Assembly (NCBI RefSeq): GCF_025628885.1
Contig: NZ_JAOTIF010000018.1
Span: forward strand, 62,001-126,000
Reading direction: 5' to 3'
DNA from: Paraflavisolibacter caeni
Lineage (GTDB): Bacteria; Bacteroidota; Bacteroidia; Chitinophagales; Chitinophagaceae
DNA: 64,000 nt
Positions within the stretch are counted from its first letter, which is position 1; each line of letters starts with the position of its first letter. Made by a program: the position numbers and the translations under genes. Under the pieces are notes generated by a model that searched no databases, was not told the DNA's origin, and saw only the letters and a program-made list of their open reading frames with translations. Positions 37,711 through 46,859 of the stretch are shown here, one piece after another.

Positions 37711-39888
37711 TTATGGCATCCTCTTCAATCCTTCCCACTTCACTTTCCACTTTCCATCTTTTGGTATTCCTGGTAATGTAGGAGAACCATCATATCCTTC
37801 TACCATCATGGCGATGGCTGTCAATAAACCACCATTACCAGGCATATACAACGTCAAACGGTTGTCCTGGTAATTATGCCCGTTCTTCAGGTAAGTATTG
37901 GTTCTAATAGGCATAAATAATGCATCCATCGCTTTATCAGGCATACCCAGCCTCGTTGCAGTCATGGCTGTCATCGGGAAATCCCAGCCCCAGGTATCCG
38001 GCCATGTCCATGTATTCCAGATCAAGTCGAAAGTGCGGCGCATGGTGGCGGTATCCAGCAAATTGCTTTTGGGCAGCATACCGTAAGCACCAAATACACT
38101 TGGGTGGTCTGTTTTGTATTCAGGATTGGTGTATGAATCCGGTGCACTTTCAGCAGCCAGGTATACACTATCCTGTTTAGGCAAAGGAGACAACCTGGCC
38201 AGTACTTCATCCCACTTTTTATTGCGGGGCAAGCCCAGGCGCTGACGCCATTGCTGTGCAGCCTCTAAGCCCCACTGCCAGTATACCAGCTCGTAAGTAG
38301 GATTGTAGGTATCTTCTGCCTTAAAGCGCTCCTGTGCAGGAATCAAGCCTTTACCCAGTATATAGCGCCCTTTTTCTTTGTCGTAATAAGCAAAAGAAGC
38401 CATGAAGTCTGCTGTCGCAAATACCAGGTCTTTGTATTTATCCAAGGTAGCCTTGTCTTTTTTGTTGCGGTAGATCAACTCTGCAAAGTAGATATAGTGC
38501 GGCTGCTGCCAGATCAGGAACGCACCGACAGAAGAAGGCACTTCCTCCCCTGTATTCTCTACCACCTTTTGCCAGCGAATACCTTCAAATCCCTGGCGCT
38601 CTGCTATGCCTTTGGCAAAGGGAGCTACTTTAGCATACCAGCTCATTACTTTTTCCAGGTATTCTGTTCTTCCCCACAATGGATAGTGTGTGATGTGCCA
38701 GTAAGGCATTTCAAGGTGCGCCTTGCCATACCAGCTATTGTACGTCAAACCAGTTTCCTGTGGAGGATAAGAGCCTGCCTCCTGAACCTTCATCAGGTAT
38801 TGCGACAGAACAATTCTTCTTTCCAGTTCCGCTGCACGGGGATCAGTACTGCCGGAGAAATCAATAGCACCGCCTTTGGTCCAAAAAGCCAACAGTTCTT
38901 TTTGACTGGAGGCTTTGGTGCTTTCAAAGGTGAGTACAGTAGCAGCCTTTTGTAAAACATGTGGTTTAAACAGGCAGGTAAATTCAAAAACAGTACTGCT
39001 TTGATCAGGCGTAATTAAAAAGTCATGTGGAGCTTTTTGAGCAATCGTAGCTTTGGTCTTCCAGTTCAACTGAGCTGAGTAATCTGCAGTTTGCAACTGG
39101 TGCCTTACCGAGGCTCCTGTAGCATTGCTGCCCTGAATAGAAGATGTATGCTTGTCGGTATGAGTATAATTCGTACCATAATCTGCCCACTCTCCGGTTG
39201 GGTAAGGAAAGCGCAGGCGTACCTTCAATCGTCCTTCTTTGATCAACGGGGATTGCACTTTAGCAGCAACTGCATCTTCGGTACCATGACCATAAGTGAT
39301 TACTTCCACTGGAGTGCCTTCTACACTGAACTGGCTTCGGATCTCCCCGGTCCAGGGATTCAACTCCTGGTGAATGTTTTGAAGGTCATCAATGGATACG
39401 GGTGTACCATCTTTTTTCAGGATCTCAAATCCAAGATTACCCAACTGCAAGCGGTGAGGGTTTGCACGAAACCAATCAGCGGCCTGCTTACCACGACCAC
39501 CAGCAGATGAATTTTGTACAAGGTATTTAATATCCCGGCCATTCAGATTGTAAGCACGCAAAGCTTCTTCGCGTTTATAGCCAATAGTATCTTTAAAACT
39601 GTTCCAACCCCATTCAGATTGGGTACCCAGCGGAACACCTTTTTGATATTCCTTCGGGAAGGTTTGCAAACCTGTAACATCTACAGTAAAGGCAAACTTG
39701 CCGTTGCCTACAGTAAGAGAACCTAATGTATCAGGTGAGGTATTCACAACTTTATGCCGCTCTACCAATGCCTTACGATCGATACGTGTTTGAGCGGAAG
39801 ATTGATGCGTTGCGGAAAGGCTAGCAATTAAAGCAATCACAACTGCACTACTACGCCAGCGTGATTGTTTTACAAAAGAAGAGAGCAT
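37711..39888 (-). CDS. six-hairpin glycosidase-like enzyme, secreted
   Basis: 725 residues with a signal peptide (VIALIASLSATHQSSAQ). The central region has the (alpha/alpha)6 toroid layout: LEMPYWHITHYPLWGRTEYLEKVM, FLIWQQPHYIYFAELIYRNK and NTWTWPDTWGWDFPMTAMTATRLG, as in GH65/GH95-type and related families. The exact family and substrate are not certain; glucosidase, galactosidase and rhamnosidase-linked roles all occur. It lies in the pectin cluster between a membrane protein and a lipocalin-like gene and may remove side-chain sugars. Confidence 0.8.
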   Translation of the reverse strand: MLSSFVKQSRWRSSAVVIALIASLSATHQSSAQTRIDRKALVERHKVVNTSPDTLGSLTVGNGKFAFTVDVTGLQTFPKEYQKGVPLGTQSEWGWNSFKDTIGYKREEALRAYNLNGRDIKYLVQNSSAGGRGKQAADWFRANPHRLQLGNLGFEILKKDGTPVSIDDLQNIHQELNPWTGEIRSQFSVEGTPVEVITYGHGTEDAVAAKVQSPLIKEGRLKVRLRFPYPTGEWADYGTNYTHTDKHTSSIQGSNATGASVRHQLQTADYSAQLNWKTKATIAQKAPHDFLITPDQSSTVFEFTCLFKPHVLQKAATVLTFESTKASSQKELLAFWTKGGAIDFSGSTDPRAAELERRIVLSQYLMKVQEAGSYPPQETGLTYNSWYGKAHLEMPYWHITHYPLWGRTEYLEKVMSWYAKVAPFAKGIAERQGFEGIRWQKVVENTGEEVPSSVGAFLIWQQPHYIYFAELIYRNKKDKATLDKYKDLVFATADFMASFAYYDKEKGRYILGKGLIPAQERFKAEDTYNPTYELVYWQWGLEAAQQWRQRLGLPRNKKWDEVLARLSPLPKQDSVYLAAESAPDSYTNPEYKTDHPSVFGAYGMLPKSNLLDTATMRRTFDLIWNTWTWPDTWGWDFPMTAMTATRLGMPDKAMDALFMPIRTNTYLKNGHNYQDNRLTLYMPGNGGLLTAIAMMVEGYDGSPTLPGIPKDGKWKVKWEGLKRMP

Positions 39889-39974: not shown

Positions 39975-40493
39975 TTACTTCGCTTTTTCGTACACCAGTT
40001 TCAACGTATTGGTGCCACGTGAAGAGGTAGAAGTAGATTCAACAGAAAGAACCTGCCCATTTTCAGTAAGTTTCCAGGCCTCGGCTACTTTGATTTCCAT
40101 TTGCTCACCATTGCGGTCGAAAACCATAACGGAGTTAATGTTCAATGTTTGACCGTCATCAGACCATTTAGCAGTAGACTTCTTTTTGTTGTTTCCAAAA
40201 ACAGTGGTTTCAGTCTCTTTTCCATCAAACGTCAGCTTTTCTGATGTGGTTCTTTCCTCTCCATTTTGCGTAACAGAAGTACGCTCGATAGAAATAGCAT
40301 CAGCCTGGCTACTTACCTTCAGCTTACGAGCTGCCATGCGGCCACCAAACTGACCCAACTCACTTTTCTGCTCGTTTAATTTCCATTCACCAGATAGATC
40401 GGCATTGGCAAAAAGAACGGCAGCAGTTGTAGAAAGACAAATAAAGCCGGCAAGCAGAAAAAGAACAATTCTTTTAGGCACAGCTTTTTTCAT
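39975..40493 (-). CDS. secreted lipocalin-like protein
   Basis: 172 residues from the ATG at 40493 (MKKAVPKRIVLFLLAGFIC). The signal peptide is followed by DLSGEWKLNEQKSELGQFGG, then alternating hydrophilic beta strands (EERTTSEKLTFDGKETETTV, STAKWSDDGQTLNINSVMVF, AWKLTENGQVLSVEST). This is the up-and-down barrel pattern of lipocalin-like or DUF4488-type proteins. Ligand and role unknown. It is the first gene of a minus-strand unit and diverges from treS-mak across a 249-bp gap. Confidence 0.8.
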   Translation of the reverse strand: MKKAVPKRIVLFLLAGFICLSTTAAVLFANADLSGEWKLNEQKSELGQFGGRMAARKLKVSSQADAISIERTSVTQNGEERTTSEKLTFDGKETETTVFGNNKKKSTAKWSDDGQTLNINSVMVFDRNGEQMEIKVAEAWKLTENGQVLSVESTSTSSRGTNTLKLVYEKAK

Positions 40494-40742
40494 AAGGGCA
40501 ATTGTTGCATTCATAATTTGGAATTTGATTGAATGGGGAAAGTTAAATGATTCTTTGTTAAAAAACGTGAATACTTGTCAGTAATACGGTTACAACATCC
40601 TATTATCCATTATGCCTGGAAGATAAAGTACAATTATTGATCTCTTCACGGATTAAGGCACGATATTTTAGAAGGGTGAAAGGGCATTGATCCTTAACTG
40701 AAAAGCTGAGGTATTTTCTTACTCCTAAATTAATGAGGGCTC

Positions 40743-43700
40743 ATGGCAGAAAACACAACAGTATTAGACGATAAACTTCACTGGTACAAGGATGCAGTTA
40801 TCTATGAGTTGCATATCAAAGCGTTTTGTGACGGCAATGGAGACGGCATAGGTGATTTTACAGGCCTGCTTCAGAAGTTGGACTACTTGCAGGAACTGGG
40901 TATTACGGCAGTATGGGTATTACCTTTTTACCCTTCGCCCTTAAGAGATGATGGTTATGACATTGCCGATTATTACTCCATCAATCCATCTTATGGGAAT
41001 ATTGCTGACTTCAAGAAGTTTCTGAGTGAAGCGCATAACCGCAACCTGAAAGTGATTACCGAGTTGGTGATCAATCACACATCTGATCAGCATCCCTGGT
41101 TTCAAAGAGCCAGAACAGCGCCCAAGTATTCTCCTGAAAGGGATTACTATGTGTGGACGGACAACCCAAACCAATACAAAGATGTGCGCATCATCTTCCA
41201 GGACTTTGAAACTTCGAACTGGACCTGGGACCCGGTAGCACAACAGTATTACTGGCATAGATTCTTCCATCATCAACCCGACCTCAACTATGATAATCCC
41301 ATGGTGCAGGAAGAGGTCTTTAAAATCATTGACTACTGGTGCGCAATGGGCGTTGACGGCTTCAGGCTTGATGCTGTGCCTTACCTTTTTGAACGGGAAG
41401 GTACCAATGGAGAAAACCTGCCGGAAACCCATGCTTTCCTGAAAAAGTTAAGAGCGCACATGGATCAACATTTTCCCGGAACAGCCTTCCTTGCAGAGGC
41501 TAATATGTGGCCAGAAGATTCAGCTTCCTACTTTGGTGATGGTGATGAATGCCACATGAACTATCACTTCCCCGTAATGCCACGGATGTTTATGGCCTTG
41601 CAAAGAGAGGATCGCTATCCAATTACCGATATTTTTGACCAGACACCTGCCATCCCGGAAACCTGTCAATGGGCCATGTTCTTAAGAAACCATGATGAGC
41701 TGACGTTGGAAATGGTAACAGACGAAGAGCGGGATTATATGTACAAGGTATATGCAAAGGACCCCAAGGCAAGGATCAACCTGGGTATCCGACACCGGCT
41801 GGCCCCACTGATGGAAAACAGCCGCAGGAAAATAGAACTCATGAACTCTCTTCTATTTTCTTTACCCGGTACCCCGGTCATCTATTACGGCGATGAGATA
41901 GGAATGGGGGACAATTTCTACCTTGGCGACCGTAATGGGGTTCGTACGCCCATGCAATGGTCTCCTGACCGGAATGCAGGTTTTTCTGCCACCAACCCTC
42001 AAAAGTTGTACCTCCCTGTAATACTTGACCCGGCCTATCATTATGAATCAGTAAATGTGGAAACCCAGCGTCAGAATACGTCCTCCCTATTCTGGTTCAT
42101 GAAACGCATCATCAATATGCGTAAAAAGTATAAGGCGCTTAGCAGGGGAGATATGAAATTTATCAATGTTGAAAATCCAAAAGTATTGGCTTTCACCCGT
42201 ACTTATGGAAAAGAAACATTGTTGATCATCTCCAACCTTTCAAAATATTCACAACCAGCAGAATTAGACATCAAAGAATTTAAAGGCTATATACCTGTTG
42301 AGGTGATCAGTAAAAACAAATTTCCCATTATCAAGGAAGAAAGTCCTTATTTCTTTACACTGGGCCCTCATTCCTTCCTTTGGTTTGAACTGGAAAAAGT
42401 TTATAGCGATGCAGAACACGAAGAAGCACTGGTTTCCCTGAAGATTGATCAATGGGAAGACCTTTTGAAAAATAGCATGGTGGCAGAACTGGAGGAAAAC
42501 ATTCTTCCGGATTACCTACGAAAAGTAAAATGGTTCAAAGGCATCCCGGCTAATATACGGAGTACTCGCATTGCCTATTCAGCCGCTGTGCCCCTGGGCC
42601 AACATAATGCCTTTATCTTACTGGTAGAGGTATCATTTGAAAGTGGTTTACCAGAAGCTTACCAAATTCCTGTAACATTTGTAAAAGAACCAGCTTCAAA
42701 AAGTATAGCGGAAAGTTATCCATTGGCCATTCTGTCGCAAATAAAAGTAGGCGAAGAAGAAGGCTTGCTTTGCGATGCATTATACACCACTGAATTTCAG
42801 CAGGTACTCTTTACCAGGATGGCCGAAGCTCAGAATATAAAGTTTGAGAGAAGTGAGATAAAATTTTACGGCAGGGAGGCTATGAAAAAATTAATAGAAG
42901 ACGCACCAGAAGTACCATCAAAAATTCATAATTCGGAAATTACCCATACTGCCATAACTTATGGTAACTGTTTTATCTTACAGATGTACAGGAAAATAGA
43001 CAGGGGCCTCAACCCGGATGCAGAAATCACCCGTTATCTTACCGAAGTAGCCAAATTCAAACATATTCCACCGTTTGTAGGTGCCATTGAATGGTCGGCT
43101 TATAGAGATCCCTCCAGGGACTTTGTTGTTCTGGGCATGATGCAGGAGTTGATCGAAAACCATGGCGATGGATATAGTTTTATGCTGGAACGCATCAACA
43201 ACTATATAGAAAGGATATTAGCAAGAGATAGATCCACCCTTGCTTTCCAAAAAAAGGGAAGTCTTACTGATCCGATTAGCTTCGATCAAATTCCGGAAGA
43301 CCGGAAAGAATTTATTGGCGGGACAGCTGCAGATCAGGCTCGGTGGATCGGCGAGAGGACTGGAGAATTGCACCTTGCACTAACCTCACACACTGGTTTG
43401 AAAGAATTTGCACCTGAAGAATTCTCCCTCCACTACCAACGTTCTCTTTTTGCTTCCATGCAATCGCTGGTGCGTGAAACCTATCAAAGCCTCAGCAGGA
43501 ACCTTAAGCGGCTCCCTGAACATATAAAAGGAGAAGCAGAGGAAATATTCGCCAGGCGGGATGATGTACTCAACAAACTAAAAAGGATTTACGCCAGGAA
43601 GTTGGATGTAGTTAAGATTCGCATTCATGACAACTACCATTTAAGAAAGATATTGCTTTCAGGAAGGGATCTATCGATCAATGACTTTGGCGGAAATCCT

Positions 43701-44066
43701 ACGCGTGCTTACAGCGAAAGAAGACTGAAGCGCTCTCCGCTCCGCGACGTTGCTTCCATGTACTTTTCGTTCCATTATGTGGCTTATGAAGGCTTCTTAA
43801 AAAACACCCATATCCAGAAGGATGATGTTCAACAGATACTTCCCTTTGCAGGTTTATGGGCACACTACATGGGCGGGTTCTTTGTTAAGGCTTACCTGCA
43901 AACAGTTCAGGACAGCACATTTATTCCAAAAGAGAAAGAAGACCTGGAAATGTTGTTGCAGACTTATTTACTGGAAAAATCTTTACTTGAGTTAAACTAC
44001 AATATCAATAACAACCCGGATAAGATCATTGCACCCATACGGATTATCAAATCAATATTGGGATAG
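40743..44066 (+). CDS. treS: trehalose synthase fused to a degenerate maltokinase
   Basis: 1107 residues. The N-terminal half is a GH13 trehalose synthase (maltose/trehalose interconversion) with the catalytic triad intact: nucleophile D210 (GVDGFRLDAV), acid/base E252 (FLAEANMW) and D318 (RNHDELT). The C-terminal half has the shape of maltokinase (ATP + maltose to maltose 1-phosphate), for example SERRLKRSPLRDVASMYFSF. The usual catalytic loop H-G-D-Y-H-L-G-Q reads H-D-N-Y-H-L-R-K at 962-969, so the catalytic Asp is Asn964 and the metal-binding Gln is Lys969. The usual D-F-E-G-E-P is D981-F-G-G-N-P. The kinase is probably inactive. The gene runs opposite to its pectin-gene neighbours and is isolated. 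Confidence 0.92.
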   Translation: MAENTTVLDDKLHWYKDAVIYELHIKAFCDGNGDGIGDFTGLLQKLDYLQELGITAVWVLPFYPSPLRDDGYDIADYYSINPSYGNIADFKKFLSEAHNRNLKVITELVINHTSDQHPWFQRARTAPKYSPERDYYVWTDNPNQYKDVRIIFQDFETSNWTWDPVAQQYYWHRFFHHQPDLNYDNPMVQEEVFKIIDYWCAMGVDGFRLDAVPYLFEREGTNGENLPETHAFLKKLRAHMDQHFPGTAFLAEANMWPEDSASYFGDGDECHMNYHFPVMPRMFMALQREDRYPITDIFDQTPAIPETCQWAMFLRNHDELTLEMVTDEERDYMYKVYAKDPKARINLGIRHRLAPLMENSRRKIELMNSLLFSLPGTPVIYYGDEIGMGDNFYLGDRNGVRTPMQWSPDRNAGFSATNPQKLYLPVILDPAYHYESVNVETQRQNTSSLFWFMKRIINMRKKYKALSRGDMKFINVENPKVLAFTRTYGKETLLIISNLSKYSQPAELDIKEFKGYIPVEVISKNKFPIIKEESPYFFTLGPHSFLWFELEKVYSDAEHEEALVSLKIDQWEDLLKNSMVAELEENILPDYLRKVKWFKGIPANIRSTRIAYSAAVPLGQHNAFILLVEVSFESGLPEAYQIPVTFVKEPASKSIAESYPLAILSQIKVGEEEGLLCDALYTTEFQQVLFTRMAEAQNIKFERSEIKFYGREAMKKLIEDAPEVPSKIHNSEITHTAITYGNCFILQMYRKIDRGLNPDAEITRYLTEVAKFKHIPPFVGAIEWSAYRDPSRDFVVLGMMQELIENHGDGYSFMLERINNYIERILARDRSTLAFQKKGSLTDPISFDQIPEDRKEFIGGTAADQARWIGERTGELHLALTSHTGLKEFAPEEFSLHYQRSLFASMQSLVRETYQSLSRNLKRLPEHIKGEAEEIFARRDDVLNKLKRIYARKLDVVKIRIHDNYHLRKILLSGRDLSINDFGGNPTRAYSERRLKRSPLRDVASMYFSFHYVAYEGFLKNTHIQKDDVQQILPFAGLWAHYMGGFFVKAYLQTVQDSTFIPKEKEDLEMLLQTYLLEKSLLELNYNINNNPDKIIAPIRIIKSILG

Positions 44067-44071
44067 CGAGG

Positions 44072-44132
44072 AATGAATAATGAGTGAGCAGTAATGAGTG
44101 AGTTACTCATTACTGCTCACTCATTATTCATT
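44072..44132. repeat. 28-bp perfect inverted repeat, 5-base loop
   Basis: Arms 44072-44099 and 44105-44132 are perfect reverse complements. They fill nearly all of the 64-bp gap between the convergent treS-mak and rhamnogalacturonan acetylesterase genes; the right arm reaches into the acetylesterase stop codon. It may be a bidirectional terminator. The arms are made of TGAGTGA and AATGA words, like other repeats in this part of the window. Confidence 0.85.
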
Positions 44133-44913
44133 ATTTCATATACTTCTTCAAGTCTAATCCATTTATCTTTTTTAACTGCTCAACTACAATTGCGACATTC
44201 ATCTTAGCACCTGCTTCACCAGTGTGCGTATGGTCGCCATGAAACAAAGGAGCTACTTTTTCGCTGCCCATTTTATCATACTCATCAGCAATGAGGTTGT
44301 TCAGATCAATAAAGTAAGCGCCTTCTGATTGAGCCACTTCCTGGGCCCATTTGCCATAGTCACCAGATGCTCTTTTCACTTTACTTCCCTCCCATTGGTT
44401 CCTTGGAATCAAAGAACAAACAATGGGAGTGGCCCCTTTGGATTTCGCATCATTGATATACTTACGCATGTACCAACCGTAACTATATACCACTTCCTGC
44501 TTTTTTGTAATAGGATTGTAAATCTCTTTCGACTCTGTGTCAATACCTTTAATAGTACCGCGGGCGCGGGCTGTATCATCCAGCGGGCCAGAATCGTTGT
44601 GTCCAAATTGCATGATTACATAATCTCCCTTTTTAAGGTTGGCCATGATCTTATCCCAACGTCCTTCCGTAATGAATGTGCGGCTGCTGCGGCCACCCAT
44701 AGCAAGGTTTTGCACACTGATCCTTGTAGTATCGAAGTATTGGGCCATAAAGCTGCCCCAACCCCATTGTCCATTGCTACCTGTGCCAGCTCCGTTGCGA
44801 ACTGTTGAATCGCCAATGATATACAGTGTTGGCTTTGGCTTTAACATCAAGACCGTGAAAGAGGTCAGAGCTATAAAAGCTATTACTAATAAGGGTTTGA
44901 CAAACTTGCTCAT
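44131..44913 (-). CDS. rhamnogalacturonan acetylesterase (SGNH/GDSL, CE12-type)
   Basis: 260 residues with an N-terminal signal or membrane anchor (FVKPLLVIAFIALTSFTVLML). The SGNH hydrolase blocks: block I IIGDSTVRNG (catalytic Ser36), block II GGRSSRTF with conserved Gly, block III MQFGHNDSGP (Asn), and block V DHTHTGEAG with the Asp/His pair. Such enzymes remove acetyl groups from galacturonate residues in the rhamnogalacturonan I backbone, opening it to lyases. Its start overlaps the stop of the lyase gene by four bases, so they are translationally coupled. Confidence 0.92.
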   Translation of the reverse strand: MSKFVKPLLVIAFIALTSFTVLMLKPKPTLYIIGDSTVRNGAGTGSNGQWGWGSFMAQYFDTTRISVQNLAMGGRSSRTFITEGRWDKIMANLKKGDYVIMQFGHNDSGPLDDTARARGTIKGIDTESKEIYNPITKKQEVVYSYGWYMRKYINDAKSKGATPIVCSLIPRNQWEGSKVKRASGDYGKWAQEVAQSEGAYFIDLNNLIADEYDKMGSEKVAPLFHGDHTHTGEAGAKMNVAIVVEQLKKINGLDLKKYMK

Positions 44914-46859
44914 TTAGTTGTTGCTGTTTTTGTTAGTGATTTATTTGACTGATTAAAGCTGATATTGGGTTTAGGTGCTTTCTTCATGCCTGCCCCTAAA
45001 TAAAACCCGGTATGCGGCGGCTGGTTGTAGGAAACATTCTGCCAGGCAATACTTAAGCGGTACTGAGGGTCGTGCATCAATGTGTAAAACTTATGGGTGG
45101 AAGGAATGGTGGTTGTGTAGATGCGCAGCTCTTTATTGTCCTTCGTCCTCCAGATCACCTCTTCGCGCCAGTCACCGAACAAGTCAGCAGACAGGCAGGG
45201 TGTGGCTTTAGTACCATTATTGGATGCACATTCCTCAGCCGTGAGCAAACGGTTGGTGGTTTGTGAATTCCAATTCCATTTATCAATATGATTGCCATCA
45301 AGCAACTCTCTTGTCAGGTCGTCATCCCACCAGATCACGAAGTTGGTAGAAGAAGGTGTTTGCGCTGAAATAGTTCTACCCTTTGCATCACGCAATCCTC
45401 CTGGTCCACCCCAGTTTTCAAAACCTTCATGTGTAGGATCTATATCAGCTGCAACACCGCGGCCCACATCCACACCGGGGGCTAAGGAGAACAATATTTT
45501 ACCGGTCCTGGCATCAAACTGCGCTACGCCAGGTGTATGTAAAGCTTCTGTCTTTTCTTCCGTTTCATGAATCCCAAACACTTCCAAACCGGGATGAGCA
45601 GGATCCAAATCGCTCACATGAATAGCATCTCCATGACGCAATCCTGTTGTGTACAAACCTTTGCCATCATCATCAACAGTCATCGCACCAATACAGATTT
45701 CGTCTTTGCCGTCTTCATCCATATCAGCAACTGTGAGGTTGTGATTGCCCATGCCAGAATAAGGATTGTTAGCGTCTTTCGAATCAAACACCCAACGCTG
45801 GGTCAGTTGACCATTCCGCCAGTCCCAGGCTGCTAACACAGAACGTCCATACCAACCACGCACCATTACAGCACTGGGCAATTTGCCATCCAGGTAAGCC
45901 ACACAGGCAGTAAAGCGATCTGAACGGCTGGCTGAATTGTCATTGCCGCCATTGCCACCTATGCCTCCCCAACCATCCAGTGGATAGCGGGTAGGAACAT
46001 ATTCTGCAGAAGCCATGGCTTCACCGGTCATGCCATTGAATACAGTCAGGTATTCGAGACCATTGGCAACCTTACCATACATGGCTCCTTTGGAATCACC
46101 ATAAGTGCGCCAGTCTTTAGAAGAATCACCAACCATCTTTCCTGTACCATCGATTGTTCCATCAGCCGTCTTGCAGATCATCTCCGCTTTGCCATCACCA
46201 TCAAAATCATAGACTAAGAACTGTGTGTAGGCAGCCCCTGAACGCACGTTCTTTCCAAGGTTGATACGCCACAGCAATGTGCCATTCATTTTGTAAGCAT
46301 CAATGATCTGCGGACCAGTAAAACCTGTCTGTGGCGGATTCCTGCTATTAGAGGGATCCCACTTTACAATGATCTCGTATTCTCCATCACCATCCAGGTC
46401 ACCAACCGACGCATCATTGGCAGTGTAGGTGTATTTGCTGCCCGTTACTTCACCTGCCGGAGGTGGTTGAATGGGAACAGACAAATATTGTTGCGCAGGA
46501 GCATTGGCCTTTACGATGAAAGCATTACTCTTAGCTTGTTCCTTGTTTTTTACTATGGGTTTTACAAAGTAGCTATTTTCCAGAGAGAGGTTGGCACTAC
46601 TGTCGATGAAGTTTGTATTGTTAGTAATTGGCTTATTATTCAGCTTTACTGTATTACCATTGGCCGATCGGTAAAGGTCAAACGCAGTTTCTCCTGGTTC
46701 TGATGCCAGCAAGCGCCAGCCAACATAAACTTTACCATTGTCTTGCCTGACAGCTATGAGTCCACGGCTCAAGTTCTCCATGAGACGCTGCGCTTGAACA
46801 CTGTTTGTATTCAAAAGCACAAACGCGAGGAATGGAAATGATAGCTTACATAATTTCAT
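44910..46859 (-). CDS. rhamnogalacturonan lyase, PL11 family, copy 1
   Basis: 649 residues with a signal peptide (FLAFVLLNTNSVQAQ). PL11 signatures: RLMENLSRGLIAVRQDNGKV, repeated Ca-binding D-x-D-G-D-x-E loops (VGDLDGDGEYEI, YDFDGDGKAEM, ADMDEDGKDEI), LFGDWREEV, and PHTGFYLGAGM at the C-terminus. The enzyme cuts the rhamnogalacturonan I backbone by beta-elimination. It is close in layout to the copy at 47421-49346, with conserved RIYTTTIPSTHKFYTLMHD. Stop/start overlap with the acetylesterase gene indicates one operon. Confidence 0.94.
   Translation of the reverse strand: MKLCKLSFPFLAFVLLNTNSVQAQRLMENLSRGLIAVRQDNGKVYVGWRLLASEPGETAFDLYRSANGNTVKLNNKPITNNTNFIDSSANLSLENSYFVKPIVKNKEQAKSNAFIVKANAPAQQYLSVPIQPPPAGEVTGSKYTYTANDASVGDLDGDGEYEIIVKWDPSNSRNPPQTGFTGPQIIDAYKMNGTLLWRINLGKNVRSGAAYTQFLVYDFDGDGKAEMICKTADGTIDGTGKMVGDSSKDWRTYGDSKGAMYGKVANGLEYLTVFNGMTGEAMASAEYVPTRYPLDGWGGIGGNGGNDNSASRSDRFTACVAYLDGKLPSAVMVRGWYGRSVLAAWDWRNGQLTQRWVFDSKDANNPYSGMGNHNLTVADMDEDGKDEICIGAMTVDDDGKGLYTTGLRHGDAIHVSDLDPAHPGLEVFGIHETEEKTEALHTPGVAQFDARTGKILFSLAPGVDVGRGVAADIDPTHEGFENWGGPGGLRDAKGRTISAQTPSSTNFVIWWDDDLTRELLDGNHIDKWNWNSQTTNRLLTAEECASNNGTKATPCLSADLFGDWREEVIWRTKDNKELRIYTTTIPSTHKFYTLMHDPQYRLSIAWQNVSYNQPPHTGFYLGAGMKKAPKPNISFNQSNKSLTKTATTK

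Follow-up and report, generated by a model that had tools for sequence, protein, structure and literature searches.

The gene at 40743-44066 (+) of the window, the 64,000-nucleotide stretch of Paraflavisolibacter caeni DNA analysed here, encodes a trehalose synthase (TreS) fused to a maltokinase (Mak) half which, at a probability of roughly two in three, is a pseudokinase kept as a structural or regulatory part of the TreS assembly. The gene is a complete open reading frame of 1107 residues and profiles match both domains, as an earlier note on this DNA, made from the letters alone, had proposed. The TreS half (residues 13-550, 40779-42392, +) consists of a GH13 domain with a C-terminal beta-sandwich and scores 910.8 bits against TIGR02456 (treS_nterm; 913.4 in the genome search), above the curated cut-off of 678.35; the best PDB match of the fusion protein, both by sequence and by fold, is the trehalose synthase 5x7u. 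D210 (41370-41372), E252 (41496-41498) and D318 (41694-41696), the GH13 catalytic residues, are intact in the window as the earlier note had read them and identical in 80/80 aligned rows, and this half is presumably active. The Mak half (residues 564-1105, 42432-44057, +) scores 363.9 bits against TIGR02457 (putative maltokinase, EC 2.7.1.175; 366.5 in the genome search), which is just below the cut-off of 375.05.

Loss of maltokinase residues

Ten functional sites, taken from the available part of the M. vanbaalenii Mak structure paper (PMC4306142) and from a profile alignment to the PDB chains 5jy7_I, 4u94 and 4o7o, were scored in 110 distinct Mak domains. Of these, 59 are degenerate, and the 51 intact ones are made up of 33 fused and 18 free-standing domains. 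Intact domains are defined by two loop motifs, HGD-Y/F-HLGQ and DFEGEP; Asp305, Gln310, Asp322 and Glu324 sit in these group-defining columns, and the other six sites (Gln135, Ser136, Lys149, Lys413, Tyr416 and Tyr420) play no part in the grouping. At Q135, S136, K149, D305, Q310, D322, E324, K413, Y416 and Y420 the window protein has I, T, Q, N, K, D, G, K, L and Y, respectively, a change at 7/10 sites including the catalytic base and the lysine that binds adenosine triphosphate (ATP), which is the pattern of residue loss seen in pseudokinases.

The catalytic loop HDNYHLRK (residues 962-969, 43626-43649, +) has N964 in place of Asp305 and K969 in place of Gln310, and the second loop DFGGNP (residues 981-986, 43683-43700, +) keeps Asp322 as D981, with G983 and N985 replacing Glu324 and Glu326. 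The earlier note had read both loops, and the intact SERRLKRSPLRDVA beside them, correctly to the residue. Its conclusion that the catalytic base and the metal ligand are replaced holds for the base and for Gln310, one of the two Mg ligands of maltokinase, but not for the ligand in the DFEGEP motif, since Asp322, the main Mg ligand, is kept, and Glu324 contacts a Mg-bound water and is no direct ligand. The M. tuberculosis counterpart of Asp322 is Asp339, whose Asn mutant is inactive (PMC4306142). In the P-loop equivalent (residues 731-737, 42933-42953, +) SEITHTA replaces AEQSNTS, with Gln135 changed to I733 and Ser136, mildly, to T734. Q747 (42981-42983, +) stands at the ATP-binding lysine (K149 of the M. 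vanbaalenii protein), and in the maltose-site equivalent (residues 1079-1086, 43977-44000, +) Lys413 and Tyr420 are kept as K1079 and Y1086 and Tyr416 is replaced by L1082.

It is highly improbable that the protein is still a maltokinase with a lowered rate, as might be supposed from the retention of Asp322, Lys413 and Tyr420, the replacement of Ser136 only by Thr and the presence of Asp305 in 7/59 members of the degenerate class. According to the available text of the structure paper, the lost Asp305 is the putative catalytic base, mutation of Ser136 to Ala lowers activity by 97% and mutation of Tyr416 practically abolishes it (PMC4306142). The genome content described below, where glgE is lacking from the genome itself and is accompanied by a separate intact Mak in 18/19 of the degenerate-class genomes that have it, also speaks against residual activity.

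The earlier note had treated the protein as a single odd gene, and it is instead one member of a class of 59 degenerate Mak domains. None of the ten sites is lost in the intact fused domains (33/33), and in the intact free-standing ones none is lost in 3 and one (Gln135) in 15, whereas the degenerate domains have lost 4-9, with Glu324 lost in 59/59 and Asp305 in 52/59. The ATP lysine is present in 51/51 intact and 55/59 degenerate domains, and glutamine replaces it in the window protein only. His245, His303 and Asp343, which take part in hydrogen bonds or stacking interactions around the active loop according to the available text (PMC4306142), are retained in 59/59. Sequencing error at the loop codons, or a lone pseudogene, is ruled out for the window gene; its frame is open, and neither error nor chance is a reasonable explanation because both loops are altered in 58 further distinct domains. 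Serine at the P-loop position Gln135 marks 15 free-standing maltokinases (L105, L108, L109, L112-L114, L116-L121, L123, L124, L126) as a distinct Mak type.

Nucleotidyl transfer by a kinase-like protein is known from SelO. Another capability of the kinase-like fold for different chemistry is documented, in the text available, for SidJ (PMC6858067), and the persistence of the lysine and of the first Asp of the metal site in many members alongside the change of Asp305 would suit an enzyme with altered chemistry or substrate, for example a nucleotidyl transferase or one acting on another sugar. However, losses of metal and nucleotide residues are scattered over the class, and neither Tyr416 nor Tyr420 has given way to a new consensus, which makes such an enzyme very unlikely.

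Origin of the degenerate class

The relatives compared are 80 loci retained from 290 found, of which 79 lie in genomes examined and comprise 30 intact fusions, 48 degenerate fusions and 1 split frame; the split frame (L069) was left out of alignments and trees, and the L085 genome stands outside the glgE counts. In a tree of 80 rows built from TreS columns only, all 50 degenerate rows fall on one side of one branch with a support of 93 in the Shimodaira-Hasegawa-like approximate likelihood ratio test (SH-aLRT), a value under the tool's star at 95 and from a quick tree, as the Mak tree also is. This tree requires one change between intact and degenerate, versus 24.4 on average with shuffled labels, and in the Mak tree, built without 20 functional columns, the 59 degenerate domains form one group with support 96. 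The earlier note had suggested an alignment with relatives to time the change of the loop, and on these trees the degenerate Mak class has one origin, in a Bacteroidota lineage. In a tree of both halves a single clade for the 18 members from Spirosomataceae and Spirosoma is rejected, with a p value of 4.5e-42 in the approximately unbiased test (p-AU) that is a guide only because this group was named after the first tree was seen; this fits a transfer between families, or an old duplication and loss, of an already degenerate form.

Maltokinase and glgE across genomes

The 7.0 Mb genome that carries the window (89 contigs, given as 100% complete) has 0 matches to PF11896, the GlgE N-domain, and the search for glgE that the earlier note had called for has thus found no gene for this step of the GlgE pathway. 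A second Mak and a second TreS in this genome are likewise ruled out, as the single TIGR02457 match is the window gene and so is the one TIGR02456 match above cut-off, the next reaching 279 bits. Among the genomes of the relatives, glgE is present in 30/30 with an intact fusion, and 29/48 with a degenerate fusion have no glgE and one Mak match. The remaining 19/48 do have glgE, and in 18 of these 19 there is a second, free-standing Mak with both loops intact in 18/18; 17 of these 18 genomes are named as Spirosomataceae or Spirosoma and 1 as Flavobacterium (L068). The regions around ten of the free-standing Mak genes contain glgE in 8, have it on another contig in 2 and contain TreS in none. 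An intact fused Mak without glgE was not found among the genomes examined, and the L069 genome is also without glgE. The free-standing intact Mak genes L155-L157, from other families, are outside these counts.

A similar distribution is found in the genus and family of P. caeni (23 genomes, 9 of which look like ones already counted), where glgE occurs in the 3 genomes with an intact fusion, and the 20 without it comprise 18 with a degenerate Mak, one (G096) whose Mak loop was unread and one (G091) with no fusion at all. Natural loss of the Mak half within the genus was considered for G083 and rejected; the gene appears split, but each piece runs to the end of a contig, and the Mak piece is degenerate. 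TreS was searched in 41 genomes (34 with degenerate and 7 with intact fusions), and in 34/34 of the degenerate class the fusion, in frames of 1103-1252 residues, is the only match above cut-off.

The neighbouring genes also differ between the classes. GlgE matches occur in the fetched flanks of 23/30 intact loci and GlgB matches in those of 22/30, against 0/49 degenerate loci for either, with some of the flanks being short. The OtsA-OtsB (trehalose-6-phosphate synthase/phosphatase) fusion of L024, the one locus in which Pfam identified it as such, has a match no more than 400 bases away from 13/49 degenerate and 0/30 intact loci; over the flanks as a whole, a match occurs at 15/49 and 5/30. 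For the degenerate loci concerned, this neighbour points towards trehalose metabolism and not towards the building of glucan. The window gene itself adjoins neither a GlgE match nor an OtsA-OtsB fusion match.

GlgE is the known consumer of maltose 1-phosphate. It is proposed that in one Bacteroidota ancestor the fused kinase would have lost its catalytic, nucleotide and maltose residues, after or along with separation from the glgE operon, and that the fusion protein would since then no longer convert trehalose-derived maltose into maltose 1-phosphate. TreS could then bring trehalose and maltose into equilibrium in the service of trehalose homeostasis, and maltose 1-phosphate would not build up where no GlgE consumes it. 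The silencing of the kinase most likely coincided with the departure of TreS from the GlgE operon, because an active TreS-Mak without GlgE would accumulate maltose 1-phosphate, which is reported to be toxic in the available texts (PMC4663749; PMC7935935). The loss of maltose 1-phosphate synthesis and the uncoupling from GlgE that the earlier note had put forward are well supported, as predictions, by the residues and by genome content. The kinase fold would be retained as a structural piece that, docked on TreS, contributes to its stability or to oligomer formation, and it may in addition relay a regulatory signal.

Constraint on the degenerate half

In eight close degenerate pairs (seven Larkinella and one Spirosoma, with synonymous divergence, dS, below 1 in both halves) the Nei-Gojobori ratio of nonsynonymous to synonymous change (omega) lies between 0.06 and 0.20 in Mak and between 0.02 and 0.05 in TreS, and the sole intact pair listed has values of 0.15 and 0.08. 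By these ratios, purifying selection acts on the degenerate Mak half in close pairs. The Mak alignment has 14 columns with strong conservation in the degenerate class that differ or vary in the intact class, and 6/14 fall within residues 807-824 (43161-43214, +), which cover the interlobe loop and the start of the next helix. The hypergeometric value for this clustering is 1.3e-6, and equal clustering in any 18-residue stretch occurs in 15 of 100000 random placements; the column thresholds and the stretch were picked after viewing the alignment, and the any-stretch figure allows for the choice of stretch only. The new scaffold or regulatory role that the earlier note had offered as an alternative fits both the purifying selection and the class-specific stretch, and stands here as a predicted role.

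The AlphaFold2 model made from the 80 rows has a mean predicted local distance difference test score (pLDDT) of 80.3 and a predicted template modelling score (pTM) of 0.56, with parts of the TreS half poor and the Mak half, from residue 561 on, in 10-residue blocks at pLDDT 77-98, including a helix at 810-827. When predicted alone, without an alignment, the Mak half has a pLDDT of 40.0. A profile of the alignment including the window row matches Mak PDB structures; the Foldseek search with the full model returned GH13-type chains only in its top 50. In the TreS:Pep2 complex of M. smegmatis helix alpha-5 and the loop between the two lobes are among the contacts to TreS, according to the available text (PMC6509496). 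Residues 807-824 probably correspond to these TreS-contacting elements, as placed by the alignment and the predicted model and not by a structure of the complex.

It is possible, although doubtful, that the inactive maltokinase has gone further and become a dedicated allosteric or assembly subunit, neutralised once in Bacteroidota, provided with a new contact surface at 807-824 and inherited or transferred across families as a unit of TreS plus regulator. If true, this unit would set the direction or extent of the exchange between trehalose and maltose.

Several observations weigh against a retained structural or regulatory half and have to be set beside the evidence above. In distant degenerate pairs, where dS is near saturation, Mak omega rises up to 0.47, and at a TreS identity of 0.80-0.85 the degenerate Mak halves are 0.44 identical versus 0.58 for intact ones; constraint on the degenerate Mak is thus relaxed but present, because divergence is faster at equal TreS identity and omega is low in close pairs. 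The fusion of L069 (4876-8196), from a Niastella metagenome bin, carries an in-frame stop within the Mak half, with a degenerate loop in the piece past it, and this may reflect an error or an incipient loss. In the profile alignment the window protein offers no acidic residue at the position of Asp228, which forms the salt bridge in the mycobacterial complex, so that docking may differ from the mycobacterial mode. The L067 genome, also a metagenome bin, has glgE and a degenerate fusion, and a second Mak was not found in it. Whatever the Fisher value of glgE versus fusion class (6e-9), the link amounts to one evolutionary event because the loss happened once. Furthermore, 19/34 of the degenerate-class genomes have GH13 proteins of 540-680 residues at 530-588 bits, under the TreS cut-off, which could be further makers of trehalose or maltose. 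Finally, Asp305 is kept in 7 of the 59 degenerate domains, the ATP lysine in 55, Asp322 in 50 and Gln310 in 36, and some members may therefore still bind nucleotide or act weakly.

The faster divergence and the L069 stop, together with the drift of the maltose and P-loop sites to many different residues, would also be explained if the Mak half were a leftover that became inactive along with the loss of the GlgE pathway and is kept only since truncation would unfold or destabilise TreS, with no docking or regulatory role of its own. The conserved stretch at 807-824, the retention of H245, H303 and D343 in 59/59, the low omega in close pairs and the lack of any above-cut-off TreS outside the fusion in 34/34 genomes argue against this, and such a leftover is considered rather unlikely. 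The frequent retention of the ATP lysine, Asp322 and Gln310 would instead suit a ligand sensor, in which the Mak half tunes TreS by binding nucleotide, maltose or trehalose but transfers no phosphoryl group, and the TreS activity of an active fusion drops as ATP rises to 20 mM in the available text (PMC7935935). The window protein, however, is a poor candidate binder because it has lost the lysine, Gln310, the P-loop Gln135 and Tyr416, and a sensor is likewise considered rather unlikely. A structural or regulatory pseudokinase half remains the preferred reading.

Comparison with known systems

The bifunctional TreS-Mak fusions of Estrella lausannensis (PMC7935935) and P. aeruginosa (TreS-Pep2, PMC11046441), as far as the available texts describe them, share with the window protein the order of the domains, a similar length, an intact TreS half and a homologous Mak half. 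Unlike these characterised fusions, the window protein lacks the residues for catalysis in its Mak half and its genome lacks glgE. In the available part of the 2024 review, fused TreS-Mak is described as active (PMC11046441). The mycobacterial TreS:Pep2 complex (PDB 5jy7) has the same two partners, and the Mak profile matches its chains as well as those of Mak alone (PDB 4u94, 4o7o), but the window protein is fused and not separate, its kinase is degenerate and the position of the salt-bridge residue Asp228 is not acidic.

The closest parallel for the loss itself is found in the bacterial spore kinases of the YtaA/CotI family, whose pseudokinase members have a kinase-like fold, as is predicted for the Mak half, and have lost the catalytic Asp and kept the fold-stabilising His and Asp, as the window protein has (PMC2860764, available text). 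They differ in that they are spore-coat proteins, not known from that text as fusions to metabolic enzymes, and in that they show several independent losses where the degenerate Mak class has one (PMC2860764). No paper with a degenerate maltokinase in a TreS fusion was found by title or start of abstract in the open-licence full-text literature, and the degenerate fused maltokinase appears to be a new instance of a kind of event familiar from spore kinases.

Fusions of TreS and Mak are read as an entry to the GlgE glucan pathway, and 8/46 degenerate fusions still exceed the curated TIGR02457 maltokinase cut-off. Pathway predictions from domain names would go wrong in this lineage because the whole of it carries a fusion with a presumably dead kinase. 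The degenerate class also offers a clean natural case for studying how a metabolic kinase domain serves its partner enzyme after the kinase chemistry has been lost, for which the intact sister fusions serve as controls.

Other genes and neighbouring loci

The genome of P. caeni also carries a GlgX-TreZ-TreY/MalQ gene group and has four trehalose-6-phosphate synthase matches (G000:C3 and C45; L177-L179), of which three share a contig and lie within about 25 kb. Six intact-class genomes (G023, G026, G029, G038, G050 and G056) have two TIGR02457 matches in fusion-length frames, and in these genomes the loops of L043, L046, L049, L058, L070 and L076 are intact with no GlgE match in the fetched flanks. 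In Telluribacter a gene for an M19 membrane dipeptidase (L161:4288-5556) lies between glgE and the free-standing Mak.

On the strand opposite to the TreS gene, the surrounding part of the window carries genes for rhamnogalacturonan and other glycans. The genes beside it at 37711-39888 (-) and 39975-40514 (-) encode proteins of 725 and 179 residues without a Pfam match at E 1e-4, and after it, at 44131-46859 (-), lie genes for a GDSL-type hydrolase and a family 11 rhamnogalacturonan lyase.

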